A DNA stretch of 64,000 nt, from the IMG/VR virus record IMGVR_UViG_3300009375_000002, positions 1 through 64,000 of that record; one strand, written 5' to 3'. The position numbers and the translations under genes were made by a program. The notes beneath the pieces are model-generated. The model worked only from the letters and a program-made list of their open reading frames with translations. It was not told the DNA's origin and searched no databases. This document shows, in pieces, positions 2,038 through 51,613 of the stretch. Every line of letters begins with the position of its first letter. Within the stretch, counting starts at the first letter, position 1. This DNA is from a virus.

Positions 2038-2877
2038 ATGTCTGAATTCACAAGATCCAGATCAAAGATCCCCGAGCAACTCCCAAAGGAAATAAAGGAA
2101 TCCCCATTTATAAGACAAAGATCCCCAAATAAAAATAATAAGTCCAATTCCTATATTGTCCAAACCATTCTAAATGAATCAAAAAATATAAAACCAAAAG
2201 GAAATGGTTCCGGACGACGAAGCAAACTAACTTATGTAGTAGAAAAGGTTATATTACATCATATAGATTTAGGAATGAATATAGAGGATGCATGTAGTGC
2301 GGCTGGAGTGACCTATGTGTCGTGGTGGAACTGGCTCAAGTGGGGAAGAGAAGAAGCAAAGGGGATTAAAGAGGATCTGAATCTTGCCATAAATGAAAGT
2401 ATGGATCAGGGAGTGATAAATGTAAATGATCCTAATCAATTGGAAGAGTATATAGATGAGTTTATGAAGTTGCGTTGTCCGTCAAAATATTTTAAGTTAT
2501 TTGATAAGGTCCGGGGCGCAGAGGCAGTTGCGCAGGCACGAGACCTCGCAAATATTCAACGTTGCGCAGAGGGCGGCAAGTACTTGTCCGAGCGGATCGA
2601 GAACTATGATAAAGAAGGGATATTATTAGGAGAAAAAGAAGTTCATCGATATGTAAAGCCGGATTGGAATGCGTCCGCATGGCGCTTGTCCCGCAAGTAT
2701 CCGGCCCTATATGGGGAGAAGGTTACCCATGCTGGAAAGGTAGAGCATGATCATGGACATTCCGTCGTTCACAAGGTCGAAATCCCCGAGACAGACGACA
2801 GACTCGCAGGAGTCCTTGGCATCCTTATTGGATCAGGAGCTGTCTCAGGAAAGCTTATTGAGCATCGTCCGGAATAA
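2038..2877 (+). CDS. terminase small subunit
   Basis: A 279-residue protein immediately upstream of, and overlapping, the large terminase. Its central part (about residues 85-125) looks like a helix-turn-helix (DACSAAGVTYVSWWNWLKWG), the DNA-recognition element of small terminases. The C-terminal AWRLSRKYPALYGEK segment followed by a short charged tail is typical of the family. The N-terminal 50 residues are basic, Ser/Asn-rich and probably disordered. It would recognise the packaging site and recruit the ATPase subunit. The AAAAAGGAC upstream of ATG is a fair ribosome site. Family inferred from motif and position. Confidence 0.8.
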   Translation: MSEFTRSRSKIPEQLPKEIKESPFIRQRSPNKNNKSNSYIVQTILNESKNIKPKGNGSGRRSKLTYVVEKVILHHIDLGMNIEDACSAAGVTYVSWWNWLKWGREEAKGIKEDLNLAINESMDQGVINVNDPNQLEEYIDEFMKLRCPSKYFKLFDKVRGAEAVAQARDLANIQRCAEGGKYLSERIENYDKEGILLGEKEVHRYVKPDWNASAWRLSRKYPALYGEKVTHAGKVEHDHGHSVVHKVEIPETDDRLAGVLGILIGSGAVSGKLIEHRPE

Positions 2878-4366
2878 TCCTGAACTGAAGGATCTGTTGA
2901 TTCCAAAGATGACGGATTATATCCCGCATACGCCGACGCTTAAACAGCATGCATTTCTCCTTTTGGATATCCTTGATGCGTTTTATGGCGGAGCTGTTGG
3001 CGGCGGTAAATCAGATGCCCTGTTAATGGCCGCATTGCAATATGTCGACATCCCCGGTTACAATGCGATCCTGATCAGGAACACTTATAAGAACTTGACA
3101 AAGCCTGAAGGATTGATTCCAAGGGCGCATGAGTGGCTCCAGAATACAGATGCGAAATGGAGAGATGGAGCATTTTATGAATTCCCGTCTGGGGCAACTC
3201 TGTCATTTGGATATCTGGATGCGCCCCTTGATCATTTTCAATACGACTCTGCCGCCTATCAATTTGTCGGGATCGATGAGATTGTCCAGATCAGGGAGCA
3301 CCAGGCTCTTTATCTGTTTTCGAGGCTTCGAAGGTTAGAGGGTAATAAGACAATCCCGATCAGATTCCGATGCGCATCCAATCCGCCCCAGAGAGAACAG
3401 ATTGCTCGGGGATCATGGGTCAAGTCCAGATATGTGGACAAGGCTACTCGGGGAAGTCGTGCGTTCATCTCAGCGAAGCTCGATGACAACCCTCATCTGG
3501 ATGGACAAGAGTACAAGAAAACATTTGCCATGTCCGGGATTGATCCGATCACTCGGAAGCAATTGGAAGATGGCGATTGGAATATCAGGGCCACTGGACG
3601 GATGTTCAAGCGTCATTGGTTTAATGTCGTCGATACCGCTCCGATCCATCATATTAAATGGGTCAGATACTGGGATATGGCGGCAACTGAAGAGCGAAAG
3701 GATAAATCAGAATCTCAGCAACCGGCTTATACATGCGGAGTAAAGATCGGGAGAACTCCCGATGGATTGGTCTTTATCAGTTCTGTGATCCGGGGGCGCT
3801 ATTCTCCGCGAGACTGTGAGATCCTCGTCAAGCAAACAGCTATTGTGGACGGACGGACGGTATCTATATGGATGGAGCAGGAGCCAGGGTCTTCAGGAAA
3901 GGCGCAGATCGATCATTATCGCCGCAATATCCTGCCAGGATTTAGATTTAGGGGTAATCCCGCGCTCAAAAATAAGCTCGTCCGTTGGGGGCCCTTTGCC
4001 TCCCAGGCAGAAGGGGGAAATGTCTATCTGATCAATGGATCATGGGTGCCAGAGTTCCTGGAAGAGTTGGAACTCGCTCCTGACGCTCCCTTTTTGGATC
4101 AGATCGATGCGGCATCCGGCGGATATGACAAATTGGTTGGAATTGGATCTGGGGCAATGGCGGGGATTCGATCCGTGGGAGCGACCAAGGTGGAGAAGTC
4201 AACAATTGACAAGAAAAAAGAGAATCTCAAGGCTGGCGAATCCATGATCGAGATATGGGAAGGAGATCAAGTCGTCGGATATGAAAAGATCGGCGGGCGT
4301 GGAGGAGTTCCGCGAAGATGGACTCCGGGGTTGGTCGCTGGAATGTCCGGTATGGGGATTTCTTAA
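2747..4366 (+). CDS. terL: terminase large subunit (packaging ATPase/nuclease)
   Basis: A 539-residue DNA-packaging motor. A variant Walker A, GGAVGGGKSD, lies at residues 81-90; Walker B with the catalytic acid, VGIDE, at 174-178; and the first acidic residue of the RNase H-like nuclease, in RYWDMAAT, at Asp310. The first 130 bases overlap the small-subunit gene, implying translational coupling; the start could equally be the second ATG at 2753. The C-terminus is Gly-rich. It converts ATP hydrolysis into DNA translocation through the portal and cuts the concatemer. Confidence 0.92.
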   Translation: MIMDIPSFTRSKSPRQTTDSQESLASLLDQELSQESLLSIVRNNPELKDLLIPKMTDYIPHTPTLKQHAFLLLDILDAFYGGAVGGGKSDALLMAALQYVDIPGYNAILIRNTYKNLTKPEGLIPRAHEWLQNTDAKWRDGAFYEFPSGATLSFGYLDAPLDHFQYDSAAYQFVGIDEIVQIREHQALYLFSRLRRLEGNKTIPIRFRCASNPPQREQIARGSWVKSRYVDKATRGSRAFISAKLDDNPHLDGQEYKKTFAMSGIDPITRKQLEDGDWNIRATGRMFKRHWFNVVDTAPIHHIKWVRYWDMAATEERKDKSESQQPAYTCGVKIGRTPDGLVFISSVIRGRYSPRDCEILVKQTAIVDGRTVSIWMEQEPGSSGKAQIDHYRRNILPGFRFRGNPALKNKLVRWGPFASQAEGGNVYLINGSWVPEFLEELELAPDAPFLDQIDAASGGYDKLVGIGSGAMAGIRSVGATKVEKSTIDKKKENLKAGESMIEIWEGDQVVGYEKIGGRGGVPRRWTPGLVAGMSGMGIS

Positions 4367-5001
4367 ATGATAAATCCTGTCCAGACAGGGATTTAAATTC
4401 AAAACATTCATTGGATAACGCAAAAGTCAAAAGCCCTTTGAAGAAAAGACTTCAAAGGATCGGGATAAAATCAAAAATGTTTAGCCCAAAAAACTTCAAC
4501 GAGTCAGAGAGATTTGTGAAATCCTTAGCCTTTTCTGAAGATATAAAAAGGAGCTTGGTGCCGGATCAATCCTGTGTACACCGGATGATCCGCACAGCTC
4601 CCCATTTTAACCACGTTGCGGATATCCCTGATTTATCTAACGAGGTTTTAACCGCAAGGGATTTATCCCAGCATATCGGATCGAGTTTAACCTCGTTAGA
4701 TAAATCCCCGATTATCCCCGCGTGGTTAAACTGGATGATCGATTATCCCCGATATCGGGGCAGATCCCCAGCCTCGTTAAAGACGAGAGCCTCGTTATTA
4801 ACTAATCTGGCAGGATCTTTGATCAGATCTTTTGCGACCATAGTCGAGTTCAGACCAGTTCTTGAGAGATCTCTTAGAAGATCCTATAAAATCGGGGATG
4901 CGACCATAGCGACTAATAAACGAGTATCAGGATCAACAGGAGAGATCAGATCCTTGATTCGATTGACATCGACAATGGGTACTCGCGTAACTCGTCAATG
5001 A
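4318..5001 (+). CDS. possible protein encoded by the repeat island, first frame
   Basis: An uninterrupted frame of 227 codons overlapping the terminase end by 48 bases. The product is Ser/Arg/Leu/Ile-rich with no recognisable domain. The DNA is packed with inverted repeats (4435-4458, 4606-4730) and GATC sites, which is unusual for a gene. In favour of coding: the length of open frame is unlikely by chance, and it ends in an ATGA overlap with the next frame. Against: composition unlike neighbouring genes, no clear ribosome site, extensive stem-forming sequence. It may be a gene, an RNA, or both. Confidence 0.35.
   Translation: MDSGVGRWNVRYGDFLNDKSCPDRDLNSKHSLDNAKVKSPLKKRLQRIGIKSKMFSPKNFNESERFVKSLAFSEDIKRSLVPDQSCVHRMIRTAPHFNHVADIPDLSNEVLTARDLSQHIGSSLTSLDKSPIIPAWLNWMIDYPRYRGRSPASLKTRASLLTNLAGSLIRSFATIVEFRPVLERSLRRSYKIGDATIATNKRVSGSTGEIRSLIRLTSTMGTRVTRQ
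4435..4458 (+). repeat. perfect 9-bp hairpin after the terminase gene
   Basis: CCTTTGAAG at 4435-4443 and its exact complement at 4450-4458 flank a six-base loop. No U-tract follows, so this is not a standard terminator. It is the first of a dense series of inverted repeats that continues to about 5930. Confidence 0.7.
4606..4730 (+). repeat. nested inverted repeats able to form a large stem
   Basis: An inner perfect 18-bp inverted repeat (4630-4647 with 4689-4706, arms starting GATTTATCTAACGAGG) sits inside an outer perfect 10-bp pair (4606-4615, TTTAACCACG, with 4721-4730). The loop holds a further small hairpin, GGGATTTATCCC. The nesting is what a folded RNA or a cruciform site would show. 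No protein-binding role can be assigned from sequence. Confidence 0.75.
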
Positions 5002-5933
5002 GCAACAGGAGAGATCAGAGATCCCCATATAATCGCGATAAAACAGTCTTTCCAAGGAGACTCGGAAGGTCTCGATCGTCCAGTATAGAGCCATCTGGGA
5101 CGGCTATTTTTGCGATATCAGGGATCAATCGTCTTATATCGGGGATATCCAGATATTCAGAACGAGTTCTGAAGTGGTGTACACTGATTCCCGATTTATC
5201 AGAATTAGAACAGACCATTCGCAGGATATCGCCCGAGTGGTGTACACCAGTTCAGTCCTTATACAGAATGGATCTGGGATATCGGGATAAATCTGTTATT
5301 ACGCAGAACGATTTCAGATCTGATCCATTAATCGATGATTACGCAGAACAATTTCAGAAGTGGTGTACACTAATCATGGATTTATCAGAATTAGAACAGA
5401 CTAAGTCAAGAATATTATCGCATTATTCTGAACGAGTTCTGAGGATTGATCAAAGATCTGATCAATCACCGAAATACACTAAGGGGACTGAGCTCACCGT
5501 CCTCGGTTTGTCAGCGTTATCGCAGATATCGAGCGGATCTGATCCAAATACTGAGACTACGAAGAACACGAATCTCGGTTTGTTCGGAGATTCTGAGGGT
5601 CATATCGATGATCAATCCCAGGCAGACCGCTCCCAGACCCACGATATCAGGGGCATCAAAGGGATCTTGTCCTGGATAATGAGTCAAATCCGTCCAGTGT
5701 ACACTAAGAATACCGAGGATCTCGTTAGAACGTTAGAGGATTGGCTGGGATTGGCTGGGGATCGAATCAATCGGGATAGACCAGGGACGATCAAGGATGA
5801 TCGGGGGAATCCCCGCAGACCCACTGGTGACAAGGGGTGGCGGGGAATGGATGACGCCCGCGGCGGTCTTCTCCGGCGCAAAGGTGCGTGTGACGGGCCA
5901 TGGCACACATCAGACGTATTTTGTAAATCCTGA
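4998..5933 (+). CDS. possible protein encoded by the repeat island, second frame
   Basis: A 311-codon open frame whose ATG overlaps the stop of the preceding frame (ATGA). It carries an in-frame internal duplication: KWCTLIPDLSELEQT and KWCTLIMDLSELEQT, 62 codons apart. Ser, Arg, Ile and Asp are abundant and the C-terminal third is basic. The same DNA holds four of five copies of the palindrome GTGTACAC and the hairpin TTCAGAACGAGTTCTGAA. No family recognised. Duplication in register and the long open frame argue for translation; the stem-loop density argues that the nucleic acid itself matters. Confidence 0.4.
   Translation: MSNRRDQRSPYNRDKTVFPRRLGRSRSSSIEPSGTAIFAISGINRLISGISRYSERVLKWCTLIPDLSELEQTIRRISPEWCTPVQSLYRMDLGYRDKSVITQNDFRSDPLIDDYAEQFQKWCTLIMDLSELEQTKSRILSHYSERVLRIDQRSDQSPKYTKGTELTVLGLSALSQISSGSDPNTETTKNTNLGLFGDSEGHIDDQSQADRSQTHDIRGIKGILSWIMSQIRPVYTKNTEDLVRTLEDWLGLAGDRINRDRPGTIKDDRGNPRRPTGDKGWRGMDDARGGLLRRKGACDGPWHTSDVFCKS
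5156..5401 (+). repeat. degenerate 186-bp tandem unit with GTGTACAC palindromes
   Basis: Blocks recur at a 186-base spacing: GAAGTGGTGTACACT at 5171 and 5357, and the 23-base block starting GATTTATCAGAATTAG at 5193 and 5379. A perfect hairpin (5156-5163 with 5166-5173) opens the unit. GTGTACAC octamers lie at 4574, 5177, 5240, 5363 and 5697. A separate 17-base direct repeat starting CAACAGGAGAGATC lies at 4934 and 5003. Confidence 0.75.
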
Positions 5934-5995
5934 CACGACCCCTAAACATTTGTCCTGTAAGGGCATTAATCAATAAGGGGATAAGGGATCAGACA

Positions 5996-6175
5996 ATGGA
6001 ACGCGAACAATTACAAAATATAGAACAGATCCCTGGATATGACGAAGCATTGCTATGTTGCTATTGTAATAAGCCATTGGCCGATGCGGATTACACTGGT
6101 AAAAATAAATTTGCGTTTAAGGGATGGTCTGAAAAGGACAAGAGGTATAAGGAATATTGCTGGAATTGTCATTGA
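5996..6175 (+). CDS. small Cys-rich putative zinc-binding protein, 59 aa
   Basis: A short frame with a ribosome-like GGGATAAGGGAT before its ATG. The product carries CCYC near residues 26-29 and ends EYCWNCH, so two CxxC-type pairs about 30 residues apart could hold a zinc ion. It opens a run of very small rightward genes between the repeat island and the lysis cassette. Role unknown. Confidence 0.6.
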   Translation: MEREQLQNIEQIPGYDEALLCCYCNKPLADADYTGKNKFAFKGWSEKDKRYKEYCWNCH

Positions 6176-6198
6176 TAAGGGGATAAGGAAAAGAGAAC

Positions 6199-6339
6199 AT
6201 GGACGCAGACATTTTAATTATCGAGGGATTGATTTTGACAATCCCACATATCGTTACTTATGAACAGGCCAGGGCATCAGTCCTTGATTGGCTTGATAAA
6301 CTGCCCCCCGATACACTCGATGTGCAGATGCGTGATTGA
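6199..6339 (+). CDS. small hypothetical protein, 46 aa
   Basis: ATG at 6199 follows GGGATAAGGAAAAGAG, very similar to the leader of the preceding gene, which supports translation. The N-terminus is hydrophobic (DILIIEGLILTIPHIV) and the C-terminus acidic. No recognised motif. Short length limits confidence. Confidence 0.45.
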   Translation: MDADILIIEGLILTIPHIVTYEQARASVLDWLDKLPPDTLDVQMRD

Positions 6340-6372
6340 GCCGGTTGATGATAAGATAGAGGGACAAGACAA

Positions 6373-6513
6373 ATGACGGATAAGCATGAGTGCAAGATTT
6401 GTAAGGAGAATAAGTACGCGGGCATCTGTCCTAATTGTTTGGATCGGGATGATATTGCGCTCGTTGACGGGGGACAAGATCGGGAAGTGCAAATGTTCAC
6501 AGATCCGCATTGA
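6373..6513 (+). CDS. small zinc-ribbon-like protein, 46 aa
   Basis: MTDKHECKICKENKYAGICP followed by NCL gives CxxC and CxxC pairs 13 residues apart, a compact zinc-ribbon pattern, then an acidic tail. A GAGGGACAAG site precedes ATG. It overlaps, in another frame, the upstream part of the longer gene ending at 7069, which helps show that the latter starts further downstream. Confidence 0.55.
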   Translation: MTDKHECKICKENKYAGICPNCLDRDDIALVDGGQDREVQMFTDPH

Positions 6514-7069
6514 CGCAATCCGCAAGTTGGATCTAATTGACGGGGATGTAATCATTGTGGATCTTGAGCCGGAGGTTGCATTAAGCGAGGACGCAGAGAA
6601 ACAGATCAAATCCCATATAAAGGATACGATTGCGCATTTAGGGTTGAAGGATATAAAGGTACTGGTCACCGAGAATGTTGGAATATCGATTATCCGGCCG
6701 AGTCATTTATTTGCTCATAGGAAAGGTCGAGAATTATCTTCCGTTCGGATGCTGGCAGATCTTAAAGAACAGGATCTGGGGGTTCTTCGGTTTATGAAAG
6801 GGACTGAGGACGGATATCTTCATACATATCCCGCAAGGGATGATAATAACGATCGGGTATATGATTCGTGCCTGCGGCTTGAAAAAGCCGGATTGATCAT
6901 TGAATATAATAGGTCTGAATATGAACTACCCGGTCATTATGGGATAATGACATCCATCTGTTTTAAAGTCATTGATGCGGATACCAATATCGAAGATTGG
7001 ATATCTGAACAGATGGCTGATCCTGTAAAAAGGAAAGCCCTGTCGGATCATATCGAAAGGAATCGTTAA
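6386..7069 (+). CDS. hypothetical protein, possible winged-helix C-terminus
   Basis: The frame is open from 6386, but the first 45 codons overlap the zinc-ribbon gene in another frame and lack a good ribosome site. Coding character becomes clear from about 6525 (DLIDGDVIIVDLEPE). The true start is therefore uncertain; 6446 or a non-ATG codon near 6525 are options. The product has an alpha/beta N-terminal part and a C-terminal part (about residues 125-205) whose spacing suggests a helix-turn-helix or winged helix. It is tightly coupled to the gene at 7070. Function unknown. Confidence 0.5.
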   Translation: MSARFVRRISTRASVLIVWIGMILRSLTGDKIGKCKCSQIRIDAIRKLDLIDGDVIIVDLEPEVALSEDAEKQIKSHIKDTIAHLGLKDIKVLVTENVGISIIRPSHLFAHRKGRELSSVRMLADLKEQDLGVLRFMKGTEDGYLHTYPARDDNNDRVYDSCLRLEKAGLIIEYNRSEYELPGHYGIMTSICFKVIDADTNIEDWISEQMADPVKRKALSDHIERNR

Positions 7070-7345
7070 ATGAACGAATATAAATACGCCAGAAATTTAG
7101 CGGTGACTATTTGGCAGAAGCATTATAAAACCTCCGCGCCGGAATGGGAGTCTCTTGATGACTTGATGGGCGTCTTAACGCAGATTGATAATATGGTTGC
7201 TGGTATGGTACCGAAACAATTTGATCGACCTTTGCCTGATCCCGATTTACAAGATCCTCCCATTCCACCGCTTGGCAAGGCATATTTATATTTGGCGCTC
7301 GCGATCTTTTCGCTGGGGATCACTCTGACGTTGATCTGGTATTAG
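7070..7345 (+). CDS. small membrane protein, 91 aa
   Basis: ATG directly follows the TAA of the previous gene, with AAAGGAA upstream. A soluble, proline-rich first part (PLPDPDLQDPPIPP) is followed by one hydrophobic helix at residues 70-91 ending at the C-terminus, as in a tail-anchored inner-membrane protein. Likely part of the membrane or lysis set that begins nearby, but no specific role can be assigned. Confidence 0.6.
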   Translation: MNEYKYARNLAVTIWQKHYKTSAPEWESLDDLMGVLTQIDNMVAGMVPKQFDRPLPDPDLQDPPIPPLGKAYLYLALAIFSLGITLTLIWY

Positions 7346-7349
7346 GATA

Positions 7350-7679
7350 ATGGACGATAATGATATCAAAAGAATGGATCTGACGGAATTCAGGGATGGA
7401 GGCTTCCTGCAGGAGGTTAATCGACAATTCTTCCATCCATTGGGTCTTGCATTAGAAGTTGTGATCGTTGCCGGAGAGGCGCCGCATTCCCGCGTCCTTA
7501 AACTTAATGGGATCTGGGATTATCGCAATGATCCTGACGGGCTCCTGTTTGATGATCTGGCATCCGATGAGGCGCTTGCCAAAGCAAATAATATCAGAAA
7601 GATCCGGGCATTCAAGGCGCTATCCCGTTTGAATTCTCATGGATTTGTCATTCAGCCTGTCGGGAAAGAGATAGATTAA
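7350..7679 (+). CDS. conserved-type hypothetical phage protein, 109 aa
   Basis: A soluble mixed alpha/beta protein beginning MDDNDIKRMDLTEFRDGGFL, with a central IWDYRNDPDGLLFDD segment. The next gene starts immediately after the TAA. The overall look (small globular protein of phage accessory blocks) is familiar, but I cannot tie it to a characterised family. No catalytic motif seen. Confidence 0.6.
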   Translation: MDDNDIKRMDLTEFRDGGFLQEVNRQFFHPLGLALEVVIVAGEAPHSRVLKLNGIWDYRNDPDGLLFDDLASDEALAKANNIRKIRAFKALSRLNSHGFVIQPVGKEID

Positions 7680-7970
7680 ATGGATATACCGGATTTTATG
7701 ATACTCCAATCTTTTCGATATTGCCTTGATCATTTTGGGCACGCTGAAAATAAGGAACATCTCTCGGTAGATCGATGGGTGGAATGGGGAATTGAAAACT
7801 GGGATAAAATTTCAAAGGATATTCGGGAACTTGTTAAAAAGAAAATCAATCAGGCATTTGATCGTTATGATGCCGGACTGATTTCATTTGGTACGGCATC
7901 GGATCGGCGGCAATGGAAAAGATTAATGGCAAGGGACAGATCATTGATGGAATCCGAGGATAAAGAATAA
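7680..7970 (+). CDS. hypothetical protein, 96 aa
   Basis: Start codon abuts the preceding stop (TAAATG). The product is helical, with aromatic residues in the first half (FRYCLDHFGHA) and a charged second half. No motif. Operon position among small accessory genes is the only context. Confidence 0.55.
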   Translation: MDIPDFMILQSFRYCLDHFGHAENKEHLSVDRWVEWGIENWDKISKDIRELVKKKINQAFDRYDAGLISFGTASDRRQWKRLMARDRSLMESEDKE

Positions 7971-7971
7971 A

Positions 7972-8229
7972 ATGGAACCATCTCCCATATTGATAATCGT
8001 CGGATCGGGACAGATCGCAGAGGATGGCCTGATCGATAATCGATTATATACCGCTTTCTGTACTGGATGCGGAGAGACCGACGAAAAGGAATCGGAGGAA
8101 AGACATCAACTCATATGCTCTCATTGCGGGCATAATTTATTTAGACATATCAGGGATCAGAAGATGCAGGAAGCATTGATGGAGCAGCAGGCCGCATTTG
8201 CAAAATCGGGAAGGATGTGTCATGCCTAA
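7972..8229 (+). CDS. zinc-ribbon-like protein, 85 aa
   Basis: CTGC at residues 30-33 and CSHC at residues 50-53 form two CxxC pairs about 17 residues apart, a likely structural zinc site, followed by a helical Gln/Glu-rich tail. It is one of several small CxxC proteins in this stretch. The start follows the previous stop by two bases. Could be a nucleic-acid- or protein-binding accessory factor; function unknown. Confidence 0.6.
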   Translation: MEPSPILIIVGSGQIAEDGLIDNRLYTAFCTGCGETDEKESEERHQLICSHCGHNLFRHIRDQKMQEALMEQQAAFAKSGRMCHA

Positions 8230-8380
8230 AAAAGTCATTAATCTATCTGATCATATAGACGATAGCTTGGATCTTTCCAGATGGATCGAACAAACTGTAT
8301 CGGCGATGAGGGAAATGCAATTCGGGATCAATTTCCCCTGCGTCGGGATCGGCCTTGTCTTCATGACCATTTTGCAATAG
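8222..8380 (+). CDS. small hypothetical protein, possibly 5' half of a frameshifted gene
   Basis: I start at 8222 because GGAAGGA lies just upstream; it overlaps the end of the zinc-ribbon gene by eight bases. The 52-residue product begins MPKKVINLSDHIDDSLDLS and stops soon after entering a second open frame that continues to 8493. Either this is a short gene followed by another, or a single base change has split one longer gene near 8350. Confidence 0.45.
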   Translation: MPKKVINLSDHIDDSLDLSRWIEQTVSAMREMQFGINFPCVGIGLVFMTILQ

Positions 8381-8493
8381 ATGATCGAAAGCGTTGGATG
8401 ACGGCGATCAGGACGGCTGACAGTGAGAAGCATACTGCTATGGAACCGGAGAAGGTAGCCCGATTGGAAGAGGCCTTTGACCTATATCAATAA
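8281..8493 (+). CDS. hypothetical protein overlapping the previous gene
   Basis: A second frame, coding-like mainly after about 8360, where it reads DDRKRWMTAIRTADSEKH and ends in an acidic helix (EPEKVARLEEAFDLYQ). It has no ribosome site at its own ATG, which lies inside the preceding gene. I read it as the 3' half of a gene whose 5' half starts at 8222, or as an independent short gene starting at 8398. Confidence 0.35.
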   Translation: MDRTNCIGDEGNAIRDQFPLRRDRPCLHDHFAIDDRKRWMTAIRTADSEKHTAMEPEKVARLEEAFDLYQ

Positions 8494-8549
8494 AGGAGTC
8501 CAGTTAATATTATCGGGAGACGCCTTGATCAAATTAAAGGAAAAGACAG

Positions 8550-8747
8550 ATGCCTAAAAACAAACCTCCCATATTGACAGCAGATGGATTAAAGGCCATG
8601 ATAAAATATTTCAGGGAACGGCCAAAGCCCCAGACGTTATTCGGTCTGCCGATTATTAAGCGTGATAATATTGATTTCCCTGATATCAGCAAGATCAGGA
8701 TCGGATCGCCTTTGATCAGAGAAGAGGAATGGGAGGAAAGTCCATGA
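8550..8747 (+). CDS. small hypothetical protein, 65 aa
   Basis: ATG is preceded by TTAAAGGAAAAG, a good site. The product is basic in the middle (KYFRERPKPQTLFGLPIIKR) and acidic at the C-terminus. It overlaps the holin-like gene by four bases (ATGA), indicating coupling with the lysis cassette. Confidence 0.55.
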   Translation: MPKNKPPILTADGLKAMIKYFRERPKPQTLFGLPIIKRDNIDFPDISKIRIGSPLIREEEWEESP

Positions 8748-9391
8748 GCTTTGATATCATAAGCGCATTAGGAGTCGCCGGCGAAGTCGCCGCGGGATTT
8801 GTTCCGGGATTATCCCCTGTACTCAAAGGAGTCGGCGCTTTGGCCAAGATGGTCGGTGGGGATGCCGGAGATAAAATCAATGCGGGATTGTCGCAAATCT
8901 CAGACGGGATCGAGACGATTGCAAAGACTCCATTGACGCCTGAGCAAACCATTGAGCAACAAAAGATTACGGCGACGACAAATGTAGCTCTCGCCGAGCT
9001 CGGATTCAAGAAGAAAAAACTTGATTACGATGATGCGGCCGGTGGTAGGGATGTGATCAAGACGGCATTACTTTCCAAAGATCCGATCATCGCACAAGCC
9101 AGACCAAAAATGATGATCTTGTTAGGAAAGGTATCAATGGGATATACGATCTTGACCCCGATCCTGATAGTGATTCTCGCGATGGGTAATATTGACAAGG
9201 CGTTGTTGGGTCTGCTAACTAACATGATTGTATATCAGGGAGCTACCCTGTGGGCCGCATTTATGACATCCTTTACGGGATACACTGTCGCAAGATCCGT
9301 CGATAAGAATACTCAAGCGAAATCGGAGAATGGGATGTCGCAAAGCAATCTGTTAAAGATAGCCGGACAAATCGGAAAGGTGGTATCGTGA
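8744..9391 (+). CDS. putative holin (three-TM GTA-holin-like)
   Basis: A 215-residue protein beginning at 8744 after GGGAGGAAAG. A Gly/Ala-rich N-terminal half is followed by a charged connector (GGRDVIKTALLSKDPIIAQARP) and then hydrophobic segments at about 126-147 and 153-182. The connector ending in RP just before the membrane segments resembles the holin of three TMs known from gene-transfer-agent-like clusters. It lies at the head of the lysis region, 4 kb upstream of the endolysin. It would time host lysis by making inner-membrane holes. Identification rests on topology and position. Confidence 0.5.
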   Translation: MSFDIISALGVAGEVAAGFVPGLSPVLKGVGALAKMVGGDAGDKINAGLSQISDGIETIAKTPLTPEQTIEQQKITATTNVALAELGFKKKKLDYDDAAGGRDVIKTALLSKDPIIAQARPKMMILLGKVSMGYTILTPILIVILAMGNIDKALLGLLTNMIVYQGATLWAAFMTSFTGYTVARSVDKNTQAKSENGMSQSNLLKIAGQIGKVVS

Positions 9392-9765
9392 ATAAGCCCA
9401 GCGAGCGACAGCCATGGAAGGGCGCGATGGAAAATATCGAAGCCGCGTCCTTACCAAAGAAGACTATCGCCCAGATAGGTCTCTCAATAGCCGCATCTAC
9501 CATCGGGACAAATGCGATGATCAGACGATTGCGGGACGTCTTTGTTGAATTCTCCGAAATCGAATCCATGATCCTTGTTGCCGGGGGCGATCCTGGAGAG
9601 ATCCAGGATGAGGCAAAGGAGCTGGCTCGTACGACCGTGATGAATTATAAACAAGCCGTCGTGTTAATCCTTGCAGAAAGAGAAAGATCAAGGATCGAAC
9701 CAATCGGCCTACTGGATAATGACGCGCTAAATAAGGCGCTAAAAACCCATGACTCCGATGATTGA
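9388..9765 (+). CDS. hypothetical protein, 125 aa
   Basis: Begins with GTG overlapping the holin stop (GTGA), so translation is coupled. Soluble, mostly helical, with an Ile/Ala-rich stretch (IGLSIAASTIGTNAMIRRL) and acidic C-terminal residues. No motif identified. Position suggests a role with the membrane or lysis proteins, but nothing in the sequence proves it. Confidence 0.55.
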   Translation: MNKPSERQPWKGAMENIEAASLPKKTIAQIGLSIAASTIGTNAMIRRLRDVFVEFSEIESMILVAGGDPGEIQDEAKELARTTVMNYKQAVVLILAERERSRIEPIGLLDNDALNKALKTHDSDD

Positions 9766-9871
9766 GGCGTCCGCAATCATCGATATCCGAGGGATCTGGA
9801 ACGCCAGTTTTAAGGATATGAGCGAACATATTATCAAATCAGCCAGGAGGATGAATAATGTCATTTTTTAA
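9749..9871 (+). CDS. possible very small protein, 40 aa
   Basis: A short frame filling the gap between two genes and overlapping both (starts inside the end of the previous gene, ends just inside the next). Product MTPMIEASAIIDIRGI then a basic helix (HIIKSARRMNN). Without it the 92-base gap would be empty. Codons look acceptable, but there is no independent support. Confidence 0.3.
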   Translation: MTPMIEASAIIDIRGIWNASFKDMSEHIIKSARRMNNVIF

Positions 9872-13952: not shown

Positions 13953-15563
13953 ATGGGGCTGATTCAATGGATCAAGGATTCTTGGAGTGGCGGTAAAAAG
14001 GATAGTCGAACGGCATCCATAATTACAACGCCTGGATCTGGCGGGGTGATCTGGACTCCCCGAGGATATGATAATTTTGCGAGGGAGACATATCTTAAAA
14101 ATGTAACCGCGTTTAGATCGATCAGTGAGATCGCCATGGCTACGGCATCTGTCCCGTGGAGTGTCTTTGAGCATTTACCGAGCGGCGGGCGGGCAATTGT
14201 CCCAGATGATCCGATGAATGATGTCTTAAAGCGGCCGAATCCGAATGAGTCGCTGACAGCGATCATTCTCAAAGCGACGGCATATCTTGTTATGTCGGGA
14301 AATAGTTTTTTAGAAAGGATCAAACCGGATACAGGTCCGAATAAGGATGTGATCAAAGAACTCTATGCCCTGCGTCCTGATCGATTTAAACAAAAAGTCA
14401 ATCCGACATCGGGGCAATTGGAAAAATATGTTTATACTGTTCAGGGAAGATCTACTGAATGGGATGTCGATCCCATAACTCAGCAGGCAGATGTTCTTCA
14501 TCTGAAATCCTTTCATCCTCTCGATGATTGGTGGGGAGCGGCTCCGACCGAGTCCACTGCAAGGGAAATCGATACGAGTAATTCGGCGACCCAGTGGAAT
14601 AAGGCGCTCCTTGATAATCAGGGGAGACCAGGGATGATATTCACTTTGATCGGGGCTGTCGGAGAAGAGGCCTTTGATCAATTGGAAGAGCGGATGCAAC
14701 AGCGGACAGGGGCGGAGCATGTAGGAAAAGATCTGATTATAACCGGCGAGCGTGGCACTAAGGCGGAGCCGTATGGATGGTCGCCCACCGACATGGATTT
14801 CTCCGAGGGCGATTTAAGATTGATGCGTAAGATCGCCATGGGTTATGGAGTTCCCCCGATGCTTTTGGGAATTCCTGGGGAGGCGACCTTTGCTAATTAT
14901 AAAGAGGCGCGGGAAGCCTTTTATGAAACGATCATCTTTTTTTATTTGAATTATATTCGAGGAGAATTAAACAATTGGGTATATGACAAGGATAGTAAGT
15001 TATTTCTTGATTACATTCTGGATGACATCCCAGCGCTTGCTGCCAAAAGAAATCTGCTTTGGAAACGATCGCAGGAAAGCGAGTTTCTGACAATCAATGA
15101 GAAGCGGGAGATAGTCGGCTTTGATCAGGTAGATGGCGGGGATGTCATCCTTGTACAATCAAGCATGATTCCGTTAGGAGCCGGATCTGATATCGATGAT
15201 CAGATTGACGAGGAAGAAGAGGAGGACGAGGAAAAGCTGATACAGGATCTGATCGATCAGGGATATGAGGAGGACGAGATCGATCAGATACTTGGTTATT
15301 TTGATCCGGAAGAAAAGGGAGTTGATCCGACCGATTTGAAACCATTTCCAAATGAGTTTTCTTGTCGATTAAATTCGCCGGAGAAATACGATAAGTTTGC
15401 GCGCGTTAATTGTTTTCAGCGGTCTGGTAAAAAATGCATTGATTATATCTTTGGAATCAAAGGGACTAAGTCTGAAGTTCAGGCATTGCGATATAAGAAA
15501 AAGATTTGGAGCAAATCAGCGGCAAAAACTCATTGCAAAGATCATGGAGGATCTTTTGAATAG
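13953..15563 (+). CDS. portal protein (HK97-type) with Cys-containing C-terminal extension
   Basis: A 536-residue portal. NVTAFRSISEIAMATASVPW near the N-terminus and the later MGYGVPPMLLGIPGEATFANYKEA segment are hallmarks of Phage_portal family proteins: the latter is the clip/stem region with the YGVPP-type turn. The ring of twelve forms the DNA channel and head-tail vertex. After an acidic linker (about residues 415-445) a separate C-terminal module (about 470-536) contains FSCRL, CFQRSGKKCIDYIFG and HCKDHGG; such a module occurs on various phage head proteins. GGAGAAG precedes ATG. Confidence 0.9.
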   Translation: MGLIQWIKDSWSGGKKDSRTASIITTPGSGGVIWTPRGYDNFARETYLKNVTAFRSISEIAMATASVPWSVFEHLPSGGRAIVPDDPMNDVLKRPNPNESLTAIILKATAYLVMSGNSFLERIKPDTGPNKDVIKELYALRPDRFKQKVNPTSGQLEKYVYTVQGRSTEWDVDPITQQADVLHLKSFHPLDDWWGAAPTESTAREIDTSNSATQWNKALLDNQGRPGMIFTLIGAVGEEAFDQLEERMQQRTGAEHVGKDLIITGERGTKAEPYGWSPTDMDFSEGDLRLMRKIAMGYGVPPMLLGIPGEATFANYKEAREAFYETIIFFYLNYIRGELNNWVYDKDSKLFLDYILDDIPALAAKRNLLWKRSQESEFLTINEKREIVGFDQVDGGDVILVQSSMIPLGAGSDIDDQIDEEEEEDEEKLIQDLIDQGYEEDEIDQILGYFDPEEKGVDPTDLKPFPNEFSCRLNSPEKYDKFARVNCFQRSGKKCIDYIFGIKGTKSEVQALRYKKKIWSKSAAKTHCKDHGGSFE

Positions 15564-15594
15564 AAGTCGAAAATGCGTTTGAGGCGGCGAGTGG

Positions 15595-17121
15595 ATGATC
15601 AACATTACCAACACAAGGGCAAAGCGATTATGGCAACAGGAGTTTGAAAGACAAATGGTTGTTTTGGAAAATATCTTTGCCAGAGAACTGAGACCGGTCC
15701 TTGGTCGACAATATATGAATGCGGCAACTCTTGTTCAGCAAGGGGTGCTCGATGCGGTGGATCATTCTGTCGATCTGGAGAGGGCTCGCTTAGCGAAGAT
15801 ATTTGGGCGACATTATAAACGGGTAGCCACTACGTTTGGAAATAAGACTTATTCGATTATGGAGGATGTCAAGAGCCTTGTCGCCTATGAATCCAAGGGT
15901 CCGAAAGATGAGTTTTGGAAGTCCATAAATGCATGGACTTCATCCCAGACTGCGCAAAAGGTCAGGCGCGTCCAAAAGACGACTAAAGAGAATATCGCCA
16001 GGGTGATTCAAAAAGGGATGGGCGAAGGGGAGGATCATCGGGGCATCGCCAAAAGAGTCAGGAAACAGAGCAAGGCGGTCAATCCCCATAGGGCCAGGAC
16101 GATTGCCTTGACGGAAACTCATTCTGTCGCGGTTAAAAGCATGGATACTGCGATTGCCAGCACTCGGATTGAAATGGAAAGGGAATGGGTATCCGCAAAA
16201 GATGATCGGACAAGATCCAGAGCGAGAAAGGATAAATTTGAACATTATCTAAAGTTTCCTGCGGGACCCGATGGAGAGAAGACATCTCAAGATGGTCAAT
16301 TCATCAAGACAGGACAGGCACTTTCATTCCCTGGCGATCCTAAAGGATCTGCGGGAAATGTTGTGCGCTGCCGTTGCGTGTTGCTCTACCATACGGTCAA
16401 GCGAACAGATAAATTAAAGCCACATGTTCCGACAATCGATTTAACAGATCCATCCGAATGGATTCAGGTTAAGAATCTCAAAGATGGACAAAAGCAAATG
16501 AAACAGCGATTTAAAATACATAAAACAACTTTTAAGGGATATAGAAAAGAAAAAAGTTCGATTGATGGAATGAACAAGATCGGCCGGCATATTGCGGATA
16601 CTGTCAAGCGTAATCCTGGATTTGGAGAGATAATAAGAAAATCTCGAAAACTGGATTCTCTTACGATTTTTAATGAGAAAAATTTGGAAAGACTGGCGGG
16701 CAAACCGATGGGCGCATGGGGAAGATATTGGGGAGGGGTTGCTCAGCCTGGGCGAATTGAGTTGGCGGGCCACCATCATAGCGTTAGTTTGCTTTCATCT
16801 CGGGCGACAGGCAATAGTCTTTTGGGGGGTCACTCAACTTCATCTGCGTTTAATGATCCGTTAGTATCATTAATGCATGAGTTAGCTCATCATTATAGAA
16901 CGTCCGGGAAGCCAATATCAAGAAAAGCCTGGGATGTTTTTTTTAATAAGAAAGGGGCTTCCTGGTTTCGAAAAAATGTGACTAAATATTCTGGGACAAG
17001 TTCTTCGGAGGCCTTTTCTGAGGTTATGGCTTCTTTATTATCTCCGAATTATGGACAACCTGGAAATCGACTTCCAAAGGAACTCGAAAGATTATTAGTT
17101 GATAAACTAAAAGGAAAATAA
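15595..17121 (+). CDS. Mu F-like minor head protein fused to a HExxH metallopeptidase-like domain
   Basis: The first ~280 residues match the Mu gpF/SPP1 gp7 head morphogenesis family: a long helical region, ARTIALTETHSVAVKS, then ending in GNVVRCRCVLLY. Such proteins sit near the portal and may enter the cell. The C-terminal ~220 residues differ: HELAHHY at 428-434 gives HExxH, and SSEAFSEVMASLL (Glu472/Glu476) supplies a downstream acid as in gluzincins. So the protein looks like a head protein carrying a zinc-protease-like cargo. Catalysis is inferred from the motif. Confidence 0.8.
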   Translation: MINITNTRAKRLWQQEFERQMVVLENIFARELRPVLGRQYMNAATLVQQGVLDAVDHSVDLERARLAKIFGRHYKRVATTFGNKTYSIMEDVKSLVAYESKGPKDEFWKSINAWTSSQTAQKVRRVQKTTKENIARVIQKGMGEGEDHRGIAKRVRKQSKAVNPHRARTIALTETHSVAVKSMDTAIASTRIEMEREWVSAKDDRTRSRARKDKFEHYLKFPAGPDGEKTSQDGQFIKTGQALSFPGDPKGSAGNVVRCRCVLLYHTVKRTDKLKPHVPTIDLTDPSEWIQVKNLKDGQKQMKQRFKIHKTTFKGYRKEKSSIDGMNKIGRHIADTVKRNPGFGEIIRKSRKLDSLTIFNEKNLERLAGKPMGAWGRYWGGVAQPGRIELAGHHHSVSLLSSRATGNSLLGGHSTSSAFNDPLVSLMHELAHHYRTSGKPISRKAWDVFFNKKGASWFRKNVTKYSGTSSSEAFSEVMASLLSPNYGQPGNRLPKELERLLVDKLKGK

Positions 17122-17122
17122 A

Positions 17123-17323
17123 ATGCTCGCAGAACCCGGATGTTTTCAGAGAAAATGCAAGCACTATATCGGGATATCCCAACCCGATGGAACCGAATTA
17201 TCAGAGCGAAATGTTTGCAAGGCGTTTCCCGAAATGATCCCTGACGAAATTGCTTATGGGGACAATCTCCATTTAAAGCCTTTGTCGGATCAGGGTAATG
17301 ATATCGTTTTTGAAAAAGAATAA
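17123..17323 (+). CDS. small Cys-containing protein of the head cluster, 66 aa
   Basis: Starts two bases after the head protein. Cys residues in GCFQRKCKHY and in NVCKAFP, and the DEIAYGDN end, match the pattern of small proteins often seen between the Mu F-like gene and the prohead protease; the three or four Cys could bind metal. Role unknown. Confidence 0.55.
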   Translation: MLAEPGCFQRKCKHYIGISQPDGTELSERNVCKAFPEMIPDEIAYGDNLHLKPLSDQGNDIVFEKE

Positions 17324-17343
17324 ATAGGAAGGAGGATAGGATC

Positions 17344-18093
17344 ATGGCAATAAAAGAACCGTATTTGGATATTCCATTTGAGGTCAAGGCCGAGGATATC
17401 AAAAAGGATGGAACATTCAAGGGCTGGGGATCGCTATTTAATCGCCCCCCGGATGCTCATCGAGACCTTGTCAGCCGAGGGGCTTTTACCGAGACCTTGG
17501 CAAAGGGCGGTCGCAATCGTACGGGGGTTGCCATGCTCTGGCAACATCGATCTGATAAGATCCCAGGCGTCTGGAAATCGCTGATGGAGAATAAAAAGGG
17601 ATTGGCGGCTGAGGGGAAATTGGCTCTTGCGACTCAATTGGGAAATGATGTTTATGAGATCATGAAACTGGGCGCAGAGCTGGGGACTTTTAAACTGGGA
17701 TTATCAATCGGATATGACGCCCTTGAATTTGAGGTGGATAAAAAGAAAAAGATTCGTGATCTGAAAAAGGTCGATCTGTGGGAGCTGAGCATTGTCACTT
17801 TTCCGGCAAAACTTGGAGCCACAGTCACGACCGTGAAACAGATAAAGGGAGCAAAGACCGAGCGAGAACTGGAGAGGATTCTACGGGAGGTGGAAGGTCT
17901 ATCAGAATGCTCGGCAAAGCTCCTTGTCAAGATGTGCAAGCCATCCCTGCGGGAGGCTGGGAGGGACGATGCGCTGTTACATGATGATGTGTTATCCGGC
18001 ATATTGGATGGGCTCAAGGAGACCAATCAGGATCTTGAGGCCTTTCAAAAGAATAATCAGATAGCATCATCGATCAAAGGTATTTTAACTTAA
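17344..18093 (+). CDS. prohead protease (HK97 family, peptidase S78)
   Basis: 249 residues. DGTFKGWGSLFNRPPDAHRD opens the fold; MLWQH (His68) and the LGLSIGY loop (Ser121) give the His/Ser catalytic pair of the herpesvirus-assemblin-like S78 family. It removes the capsid delta region and itself during maturation. A C-terminal helical tail (from about 170) is longer than the core protease. GGAAGGAGG precedes ATG, and the capsid gene follows directly. Confidence 0.9.
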   Translation: MAIKEPYLDIPFEVKAEDIKKDGTFKGWGSLFNRPPDAHRDLVSRGAFTETLAKGGRNRTGVAMLWQHRSDKIPGVWKSLMENKKGLAAEGKLALATQLGNDVYEIMKLGAELGTFKLGLSIGYDALEFEVDKKKKIRDLKKVDLWELSIVTFPAKLGATVTTVKQIKGAKTERELERILREVEGLSECSAKLLVKMCKPSLREAGRDDALLHDDVLSGILDGLKETNQDLEAFQKNNQIASSIKGILT

Positions 18094-18122
18094 CTTGGAT
18101 TATTAAAAAGGAGGTTGTAATC

Positions 18123-19550
18123 ATGGCAGATGAAAATACCCAGACTCCCGAGCCTAAAGTTGTAAAGCAGGTTAAGGAAGAGATCGCCGCATTTGGCGAA
18201 AATATCAAAGGCAATTACGATGAGCTTCGCAAAGCCCATGAGGCATTGAAGCTGGTGGTCGATCAGACCGAAGGGAAATTTGATACCCTGGTCGAAGGTA
18301 AGATCGTCAAGCTGGGCGAAGACATCACAACGCGGCAGGCTGATCTGGATGCCAAAATGGCGATCAGGGCTGAAGAGGAAAAGAAGCTCACCGAGCGGAT
18401 GGACTCGATCGAGGTCGCCCTGAAAAGGACCCCGAATGCTGTCAGCGTAAAGCAGATCGAGGAAGCGGCAAAGATGGAGTCCGAGGCGGCGATGTTTGCG
18501 ATCAATGCCGCAGTCGTATCCGGTCAAAAGCAGGTCACTTGGGAACATGCCAAAAAGCTGACCGAGTCTTTTAATATCGATGAGTATAAAGCCTATACAT
18601 CGGCGTTCACTGATTTTCTGCGGACAAATTCCAATACGTGGAATTCCAGGGCCGATCAGATCAAGGCCCTTTCGATCGGGATCGATCCCGATGGCGGATA
18701 TACCGTTACCCCCGTTATGAGCAATCGGATTGTTACCCGATTATTTGAAGCCGATCCGATCCGTCAGCTGGCATCTGTTGAAACCATTTCCACGGATGCT
18801 ATCGAATGGCTGGTTGATTATGGCGAAGCTGGCTGGGGCTGGGAGGCCGAGACCGTTGCCGGGGATGAGACCGATACTCCTCAGCTCTTCAAAAAGAGAA
18901 TCCCCGTCCATATCATGTATGCCAAGCCACGCGCGAGTCAGAGTCTTTTGGAAGACTCGGCGATCAATATCGAAAATTGGCTGGCCGATAAAGTCTCCAA
19001 TCGTTTTATGAGAGGAGAGGGCGCCGCATTTGTTGGGGGTGACGGAGTTGGAAAACCCAGGGGTTTCTTGACCTATGATGGTTACGATACTGCTGGAACA
19101 GATCAGTGGGGCCGGATTGAGCAACAGAATATGGGAGCTGCTGCCGCAGTGACAGCGGATGGATTCATCGATGTCATGTATCGATTGATCGAGCAGTATC
19201 TGCAACGAGCGTCCTGGCTGATGAATCGATTGACTGTTGCGGCAACAATGCAACTCAAAGATGGCCAGGGAAATTATATCTGGAAGCCCGGCCTGACGGA
19301 AGAGCGCAACAGCACGATCCTTGGCTTGGATGTCAGGATGTCTACCACGATGCCGGTAGTTGCGGCAGGGGCTCTGTCTGTGGCAATCGCAGATTGGACA
19401 GAGGCCTATATGGTAGTTGATCGTTTGGGGATCACGATTCAGAGAGATCCTTTCACCCAAAAACCCATGATCGAGTTTTATACTCGTAAACGGGTCGGCG
19501 GGGATGTCATTAATTTCCAGGCGATCAAAATTGGCGTGATTGCGGCATAA
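18123..19550 (+). CDS. major capsid protein (HK97 fold)
   Basis: 475 residues. Residues ~1-120 are helical and charged (coiled-coil-like), as expected for the scaffold-like delta region removed by the protease. The remainder follows the HK97 gp5 plan: SIGIDPDGGYTVTPVMSNRI at the N-arm, then the E-loop and P-domain with IEWLVDYGEAGW, and a terminal stretch ending in QKPMIEFYTRKRVGGDVINF. Strong AAGGAGG site. It will be the most abundant virion protein, and the expected cleavage site is near residue 150-180. Confidence 0.9.
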   Translation: MADENTQTPEPKVVKQVKEEIAAFGENIKGNYDELRKAHEALKLVVDQTEGKFDTLVEGKIVKLGEDITTRQADLDAKMAIRAEEEKKLTERMDSIEVALKRTPNAVSVKQIEEAAKMESEAAMFAINAAVVSGQKQVTWEHAKKLTESFNIDEYKAYTSAFTDFLRTNSNTWNSRADQIKALSIGIDPDGGYTVTPVMSNRIVTRLFEADPIRQLASVETISTDAIEWLVDYGEAGWGWEAETVAGDETDTPQLFKKRIPVHIMYAKPRASQSLLEDSAINIENWLADKVSNRFMRGEGAAFVGGDGVGKPRGFLTYDGYDTAGTDQWGRIEQQNMGAAAAVTADGFIDVMYRLIEQYLQRASWLMNRLTVAATMQLKDGQGNYIWKPGLTEERNSTILGLDVRMSTTMPVVAAGALSVAIADWTEAYMVVDRLGITIQRDPFTQKPMIEFYTRKRVGGDVINFQAIKIGVIAA

Positions 19551-44900: not shown

Positions 44901-44925
44901 TTATTTTTCCTTTTATTTAAAAAAT

Positions 44926-44973
44926 GGATGGGCGGTTTTTAGCTCCGATAATTGTATTCCAAACCGCCCATCC
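44926..44973 (-). terminator. candidate terminator hairpin upstream of the aminotransferase gene
   Basis: GGATGGGCGGTTT (44926-44938) pairs exactly with AAACCGCCCATCC (44961-44973). Read leftward it is followed by ATTTTTT, so it could end transcripts from the oxidoreductase gene, leaving the aminotransferase operon to its own promoter, or act as an attenuator. The remaining bases to 45091 hold only a stop-interrupted frame (GMYLHERDGRFGIQLSEL). Confidence 0.5.
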
Positions 44974-45091
44974 CTTTCATGGAGGTACATCCCCGGATCT
45001 TCAATCCATTTTACGTCCCGAAAAGATCAGGGACCGACTCGGAACACATCGGCGATGAGTAAAATCGGGACAACCCGTACGGGAAATCTGA

Positions 45092-47999: not shown

Positions 48000-48074
48000 G
48001 CGGTTTTAAAAATGTCCGATTAGCGGTGATTAGACCGAGTTATGAGCGATTAGCGGACATTTTAAAATCCCCGC
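48000..48074. repeat. inverted repeat in a 258-bp gap of the recombination cluster
   Basis: AAAATGTCCG (48009-48018) pairs with CGGACATTTT (48054-48063); with small bulges pairing extends outwards through TTTTAAAA and GCGG/C-CGC. Inside, CGATTAGCGG occurs twice (48017 and 48047). The gap 47958-48215 contains no gene; this is its main feature and could be an RNA structure, regulator site or origin element. Confidence 0.55.
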
Positions 48075-51513: not shown

Positions 51514-51613
51514 ATCAAATATCCTCTATATCTTGCGCACCCGAGACTTTAACTTAGTATCGTCACCATGTCACGATCGTCCAATATGGTGGCATCTGGG
51601 ACGCCTGTGAAAA

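Follow-up and report, generated by a model that had tools for sequence, protein, structure and literature searches.

Among the closest described counterparts of the locus analysed here (referred to as the island) are the PARCELs, in which palindromic repeats lie in coding DNA (PMC2996958). Imperfect palindromes in repeat-coding DNA were also found in the island. It further resembles PARCELs (PMC2996958) in combining tandem with imperfectly palindromic repeats, in being accessory, in holding genes without an assigned function and in having like palindromes in tandem that form extended ones. PARCELs encode a 25-residue repeat (DUF285/TIGR02167), whereas searches of Pfam and NCBIfam gave no such repeat for the island, in which a 75-nt period was not seen either. 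The palindromic elements of Rickettsia and Wolbachia show the same tolerance of palindromic DNA inside open frames, but they form dispersed families in many housekeeping genes, and the island occupies one locus with no dispersed copies. Template switching makes inverted copies and homogenises their arms, also in coding DNA (PMC8794818, PMC8604942). The resulting quasipalindromes share with the island imperfect inverted arms and perfect homogenised tracts, although for the island there is no ancestral sequence showing single switches. The ornate GOLLD and ROOL phage RNAs, which often adjoin tRNA islands, are likewise encoded by long phage DNA stretches with a very stable predicted structure (PMC12286853); the island is unlike them in that its stems are strand-symmetric and Watson-Crick, open frames run throughout, and neither an Rfam match nor a tRNA island was found.

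The GTT/AAC-rich arms of the island resemble integron attC boxes only superficially. In the lambda O gene, iterons are embedded in the coding sequence. The likeness to this iteron-type origin lies in repeated dyad-symmetric boxes within a putatively translated frame; the boxes of the island, however, are 8 bases long and unevenly spaced, an initiator domain is absent and the locus is not at a GC-skew turn. With a probability of about one half, we consider the island to be two coupled, translated, young or fast-changing orphan cistrons in which the frame rather than the protein sequence is conserved.

Genomic setting and relatives

The window (the whole stretch of DNA that was analysed) comprised positions 1-64000 of the 64,367-base virus record IMGVR_UViG_3300009375_000002, from an uncultured phage. 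Genes run rightward to ~36 kb and leftward over the remainder, and GC skew turns accordingly, its turning points being close to the ends of the record and at ~36-38 kb, away from the island. Replication-type genes were detected on the leftward arm. The island starts directly after the large terminase gene (terL), within the rightward late operon. The genes and signals concerned were as follows:

2038-2877: small terminase (PHROG E 2.7e-16)
2747-4366: large terminase, terL (PHROG E 9.6e-91)
4301-4307, + strand: putative Shine-Dalgarno-like GGAGGAG within the 3' end of terL and 10 nt ahead of the ATG at 4318
4318-5001, + strand: ORF A, 227 aa, overlapping the end of terL by 49 nt; no homologue
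4998-5933, + strand: ORF B, 311 aa, starting in the ATGA that ends ORF A
13953-19550: portal, head morphogenesis, protease and major capsid genes, downstream of the island

The limits of the island had been set at 4367-5995. The start was retained and the actual end was placed near 5800, for a length of ~1.4 kb; there a small ORF in another frame takes over. This ORF (5797-5976, 59 aa, or from 5851, 41 aa) overlaps the last part of ORF B and outscores it in codon usage; beyond ~5800, ORF B is probably not coding.

Only one relative, IMGVR_UViG_3300009008_000242, carries the island, in near-identical form (two contigs in all). In the part compared base by base, it differed from the window by one substitution, at 7560, besides a 69-bp difference. 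The relative has one extra full 69-bp copy, spanning the junction of the A stop and the B start; the added length is a multiple of three, both frames are kept, A is intact and B could begin 23 codons earlier. Alternatively, the difference in copies may be a collapsed repeat in one assembly. Two further relatives (L009 and L029) have, a short distance after terL, a homologue of the window's gene at 9858, and 4367-9857 is without a match in their DNA, which makes 4367-9857 look like an accessory block with the island as its first part. No comparable structured stretch was found after terL in the relatives. Between terL and the 9858 gene the block holds mostly orphan small genes. One encodes an 85-aa protein (7972-8229) with a zinc-ribbon-like CxxC pattern and weak PADLOC matches to the zinc-ribbon part of Cas12; the match probably concerns the ribbon only.

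No match for the island was obtained by blastn and tblastn in phages or by blastn in plasmids, and when viral contigs were searched with ORF A, ORF B, the gene at 6386 or a spaced pair of octamers, only the contig of the relative that carries the island was returned. No credible homologue or domain was found for A or B in Pfam, PHROGs, NCBIfam, PADLOC or the PDB.

Open frames A and B

The two long frames of the original prediction were recovered at 227 and 311 aa, and their overlap was found to be only four bases (ATGA). The stop-free runs span 238 codons (4285-4998, A) and 337 codons (4920-5930, B), whereas a run of 311 codons was reached in 0/2000 shuffles of each of the orders 1, 2 and 3. 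Stop triplets are present in both regions and none is in the frame used (0/35 in A, 0/34 in B; about 1e-6 each). The stop-free frames are thus longer than expected by chance, as in protein-coding genes, and have been kept open. The other plus-strand runs of 204-360 codons, among those listed, are all in the rightward half, where they coincide with ORF calls; none of those listed comes from the leftward half.

Codon usage and codon-position composition were unlike those of the phage's genes. Codon log-odds against a stop-free random null gave z 1.4 (A) and 1.1 (B), with the 5th percentile of the phage genes at 2.3 (the reference was the long ORFs of the phage, 95% of which exceed the null by at least 2.3 sd). 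GC by codon position was flat (A 0.40/0.46/0.44, B 0.47/0.48/0.46), unlike the three genes compared, in which GC at position 2 is below that at position 1. Direct 8-mer repeats were in codon phase in 10/15 cases in A and 15/33 in B (59% in ordinary genes). For seven in-phase pairs of internal copies, with ~42 synonymous sites, pS was 0.29, pN 0.25 and pN/pS 0.85. From the avoidance of stops, the weak codon scores, the flat GC and the pN/pS of the internal copies, we infer that constraint acts on the frame and scarcely on the amino acids. AlphaFold2 models computed without an alignment had a pLDDT of 36 (A) and 34 (B) and were uninformative. An odd repeat protein was the best supported of the three options raised at the outset, though solely in the sense that the DNA is kept translatable; it has no codon bias, no evident constraint on its amino acids, no homologues and no fold predicted with confidence.

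In the arrangement that we propose, A (4318-5001) and B (4998 to ~5800 or 5933) would be translationally coupled and would have been inserted in the rightward late operon after terL. Translation of A would begin at the start embedded in terL, and B, which is without a Shine-Dalgarno of its own, would be coupled to A via the ATGA. The frame may be kept because the young products are sequence-tolerant proteins, or because ribosomes moving through an insert that precedes the capsid genes would avoid Rho-dependent polarity downstream. A frameshift-linked fusion of A and B was considered and rejected, no slippery heptamer being seen by eye in 4920-4999.

Repeats, palindromes and the octamer array

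Self-comparison showed that imperfect palindromes tile the island, beyond the repeats that had been named before. Palindromes, repeats and octamers were located as follows:

4371-4395: imperfect palindrome or small hairpin, just past the terL stop
4435-4458: 9-bp hairpin CCTTTGAAG/CTTCAAAGG, found by folding and by self-comparison
4550-4601: imperfect palindrome of 52 nt and 21 pairs, none of them G-U, with GTGTACAC close to the apex
4574-4581: GTGTACAC, octamer 1
4602-4734: 133-nt imperfect palindrome with the 18-bp perfect repeat, the strongest palindrome of the phage
4747-4760: perfect palindrome CCCCGATATCGGGG
4812-4885: 74-nt imperfect palindrome
4934-5019, + strand: 69-bp unit and partial second copy, spanning the A stop and B start
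5144-5467: overlapping imperfect palindromes (5144-5283, 5165-5321, 5314-5400, 5385-5442 and 5444-5467)
5158-5215, + strand: 58-nt repeat, copy 1, encoding KWCTLI-DLSELEQT
5177-5184: GTGTACAC, octamer 2
5240-5247: GTGTACAC, octamer 3, at the centre of the 12-bp palindrome TGGTGTACACCA
5344-5401, + strand: second copy of the 58-nt repeat, at a spacing of 186 from the first, with 86% identity and in the same codon phase
5363-5370: GTGTACAC, octamer 4
5697-5704: GTGTACAC, octamer 5

The 18-bp perfect inverted repeat (4630-4647/4689-4706) is nested, as had been described, in a second inverted repeat (TTTAACCACG.../CGTGGTTAAA); together they give a 46-nt arm pair at 78%, or the 133-nt imperfect palindrome. 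The 18-bp perfect tract sits within a palindrome of 71%, and perfect tracts are patchy. The 9-bp hairpin (4435-4443/4450-4458) and the direct repeats of 23 nt (5193/5379) and 17 nt (4934/5003) were also present. The supposed 186-bp tandem unit was reduced to 58 nt that recur at that spacing, the remainder being not clearly alike. Since related phage DNA has a single palindrome as strong as 4602-4734 roughly every 240-360 kb, the unusual feature is the tiling by imperfect palindromes and not any single palindrome. The island has the highest counts of both direct and inverted 8-mer repeats among all 1.6-kb tiles of the 64-kb window (187 direct and 166 inverted, against tile medians of 58 and 45). 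Compared with 300 codon-preserving shuffles, inverted 8-mer matches were above all shuffles for A and equal to the shuffle maximum for B.

If A and B are indeed young coupled cistrons, their DNA would have grown by head-to-tail copies (the 58 nt, and the 69-bp unit whose copy number differs between the two contigs), and replication template switching would have supplied the inverted copies that now appear as tiled imperfect palindromes. Copying at the DNA level is favoured because the palindromes are Watson-Crick and strand-symmetric. During this growth the reading frames would be held open while the amino-acid sequence drifts almost freely. An amplification-chimera artefact was judged unlikely, as the arms diverge by 15-30% and agreement was seen between two contigs with separate names.

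Similar features were seen elsewhere in the window. Island positions 5069-5105 match 51570-51606, in an intergenic gap beside a RuvC-like gene, over 37 nt at 84% (E 4.8e-5), and a CGTCC...GGGACG hairpin could form at each. Ahead of the small terminase gene, the divergent intergenic region (1732-2037) folds into a single long, imperfect palindrome (z -3.7). Further imperfect palindromes of notable strength are located at 48000-48074 and 44923-44978.

The five GTGTACAC that had been reported are all those of the 64-kb window (0.06 expected; five in 0/100 shuffles). The octamer is dyad-symmetric and is exactly the core common to the five sites; its copies fall in three codon phases, so the array is unexplained by coding. 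Several dyad-symmetric boxes confined to one locus are a feature of iteron and protein-binding arrays, and the set may be a candidate array of the latter kind. The island could then be a DNA-level site, in which a dimeric phage or host protein binds the palindromic octamers within translated DNA and acts in regulation, partition, replication or packaging. The symmetry of the palindromes and the nearby terminase are in keeping with such a site, which we regard as unlikely, though less so than the other alternatives. Three of the five octamers, however, belong to repeat copies that are related, which lowers the number of independent ones; their spacing is irregular (603, 63, 123 and 334); and the positions of the GC-skew turns and of the replication-type genes, together with the relatives that have no comparable region after terL, speak against it. 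Of the DNA sites proposed originally, what stands is a palindromic octamer confined to the island; packaging, an origin and partition were not indicated. A decoy for restriction at GATC fails because GATC is dense phage-wide (13.6 per kb, 8-9 in other 200-bp bins, 1.06x the Markov expectation), and the eight GATC in 4801-5000, correctly counted, are ordinary for this phage and no special cluster. Within 1-64000, GGATCC (46 expected) and CTAG (36 expected) are absent and CGCG is at half its expectation, a pattern suggesting that restriction sites, including BamHI-like ones, are avoided.

Selection may also act on array and frame together. The DNA would then be selected for the GTGTACAC array, the tiled palindromes and an uninterrupted ribosome path, with a peptide nearly free to vary and with diversification via repeat duplication between sister phages; we hold this to be rather improbable.

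Filler, folded RNA and implications

Neutral filler would be an insertion of repeat-rich DNA that is decaying and serves no selected function, with frames that are coincidence or remnant. Codon usage and codon-position composition close to random, conservation limited to one phage and a pN/pS near 1 (at few sites) would all agree with this. The internal copies have nevertheless diverged by 14-22%, enough for several stops or frameshifts, and none occurs in ~540 codons; as both frame tests also gave values near 1e-6, filler appears very unlikely.

Folding of 4367-4910 (544 nt) gave an MFE of -186.6 kcal/mol and the lowest folding z, -9.7, against dinucleotide shuffles, and in a genome-wide fold scan the island held the most structured tile of the phage. 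Over 4369-4896 (ORF A), z was still -6.5 against shuffles that keep the protein and codon counts, and since the structure exceeds this codon-preserving null, something beyond coding shapes the DNA of the island. The 3' half was weaker (z ~-3 for 5001-5399, none for 5400-5798), and 5416-5800 was unstructured. These values, and hairpins that adjoin without spacers, would suit the large structured phage RNA put forward in the original prediction, here a non-coding RNA of the ornate type that would represent a new family and be transcribed either together with the late operon or separately from it. Under selection at the RNA level, one would anticipate a surplus of G-U pairs on the sense strand. 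No sense-strand bias in stability or in G-U pairs was found: the MFE of 4367-4910 was -186.6 on the plus and -192.2 on the minus strand, with 11 G-U pairs on each, and the main hairpins have G-U in 0/21 and 1/52 pairs. This strand symmetry points to the DNA level and argues against a GOLLD/ROOL-type RNA. Rfam gave no match for the island at gathering scores and only chance-level matches at a relaxed threshold, and no tRNA was found in the window, so the association with tRNA islands is not shared. A covariance model of the two main hairpins, searched against 375 kb, matched itself alone, including its own opposite strand because it is palindromic. With long perfect helices and open frames through every hairpin added, a structured RNA is disfavoured and is the least probable of the alternatives.

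Two translated cistrons whose frame is conserved remain the preferred reading of the island. If the frame is selected and the peptide is not, the locus would allow two questions to be asked in a compact natural setting: how novel genes originate in phages, and whether insertions in polycistronic operons need translation to avoid polarity. The GTGTACAC octamers, in turn, provide a clear motif array that can be tested for a binding protein.
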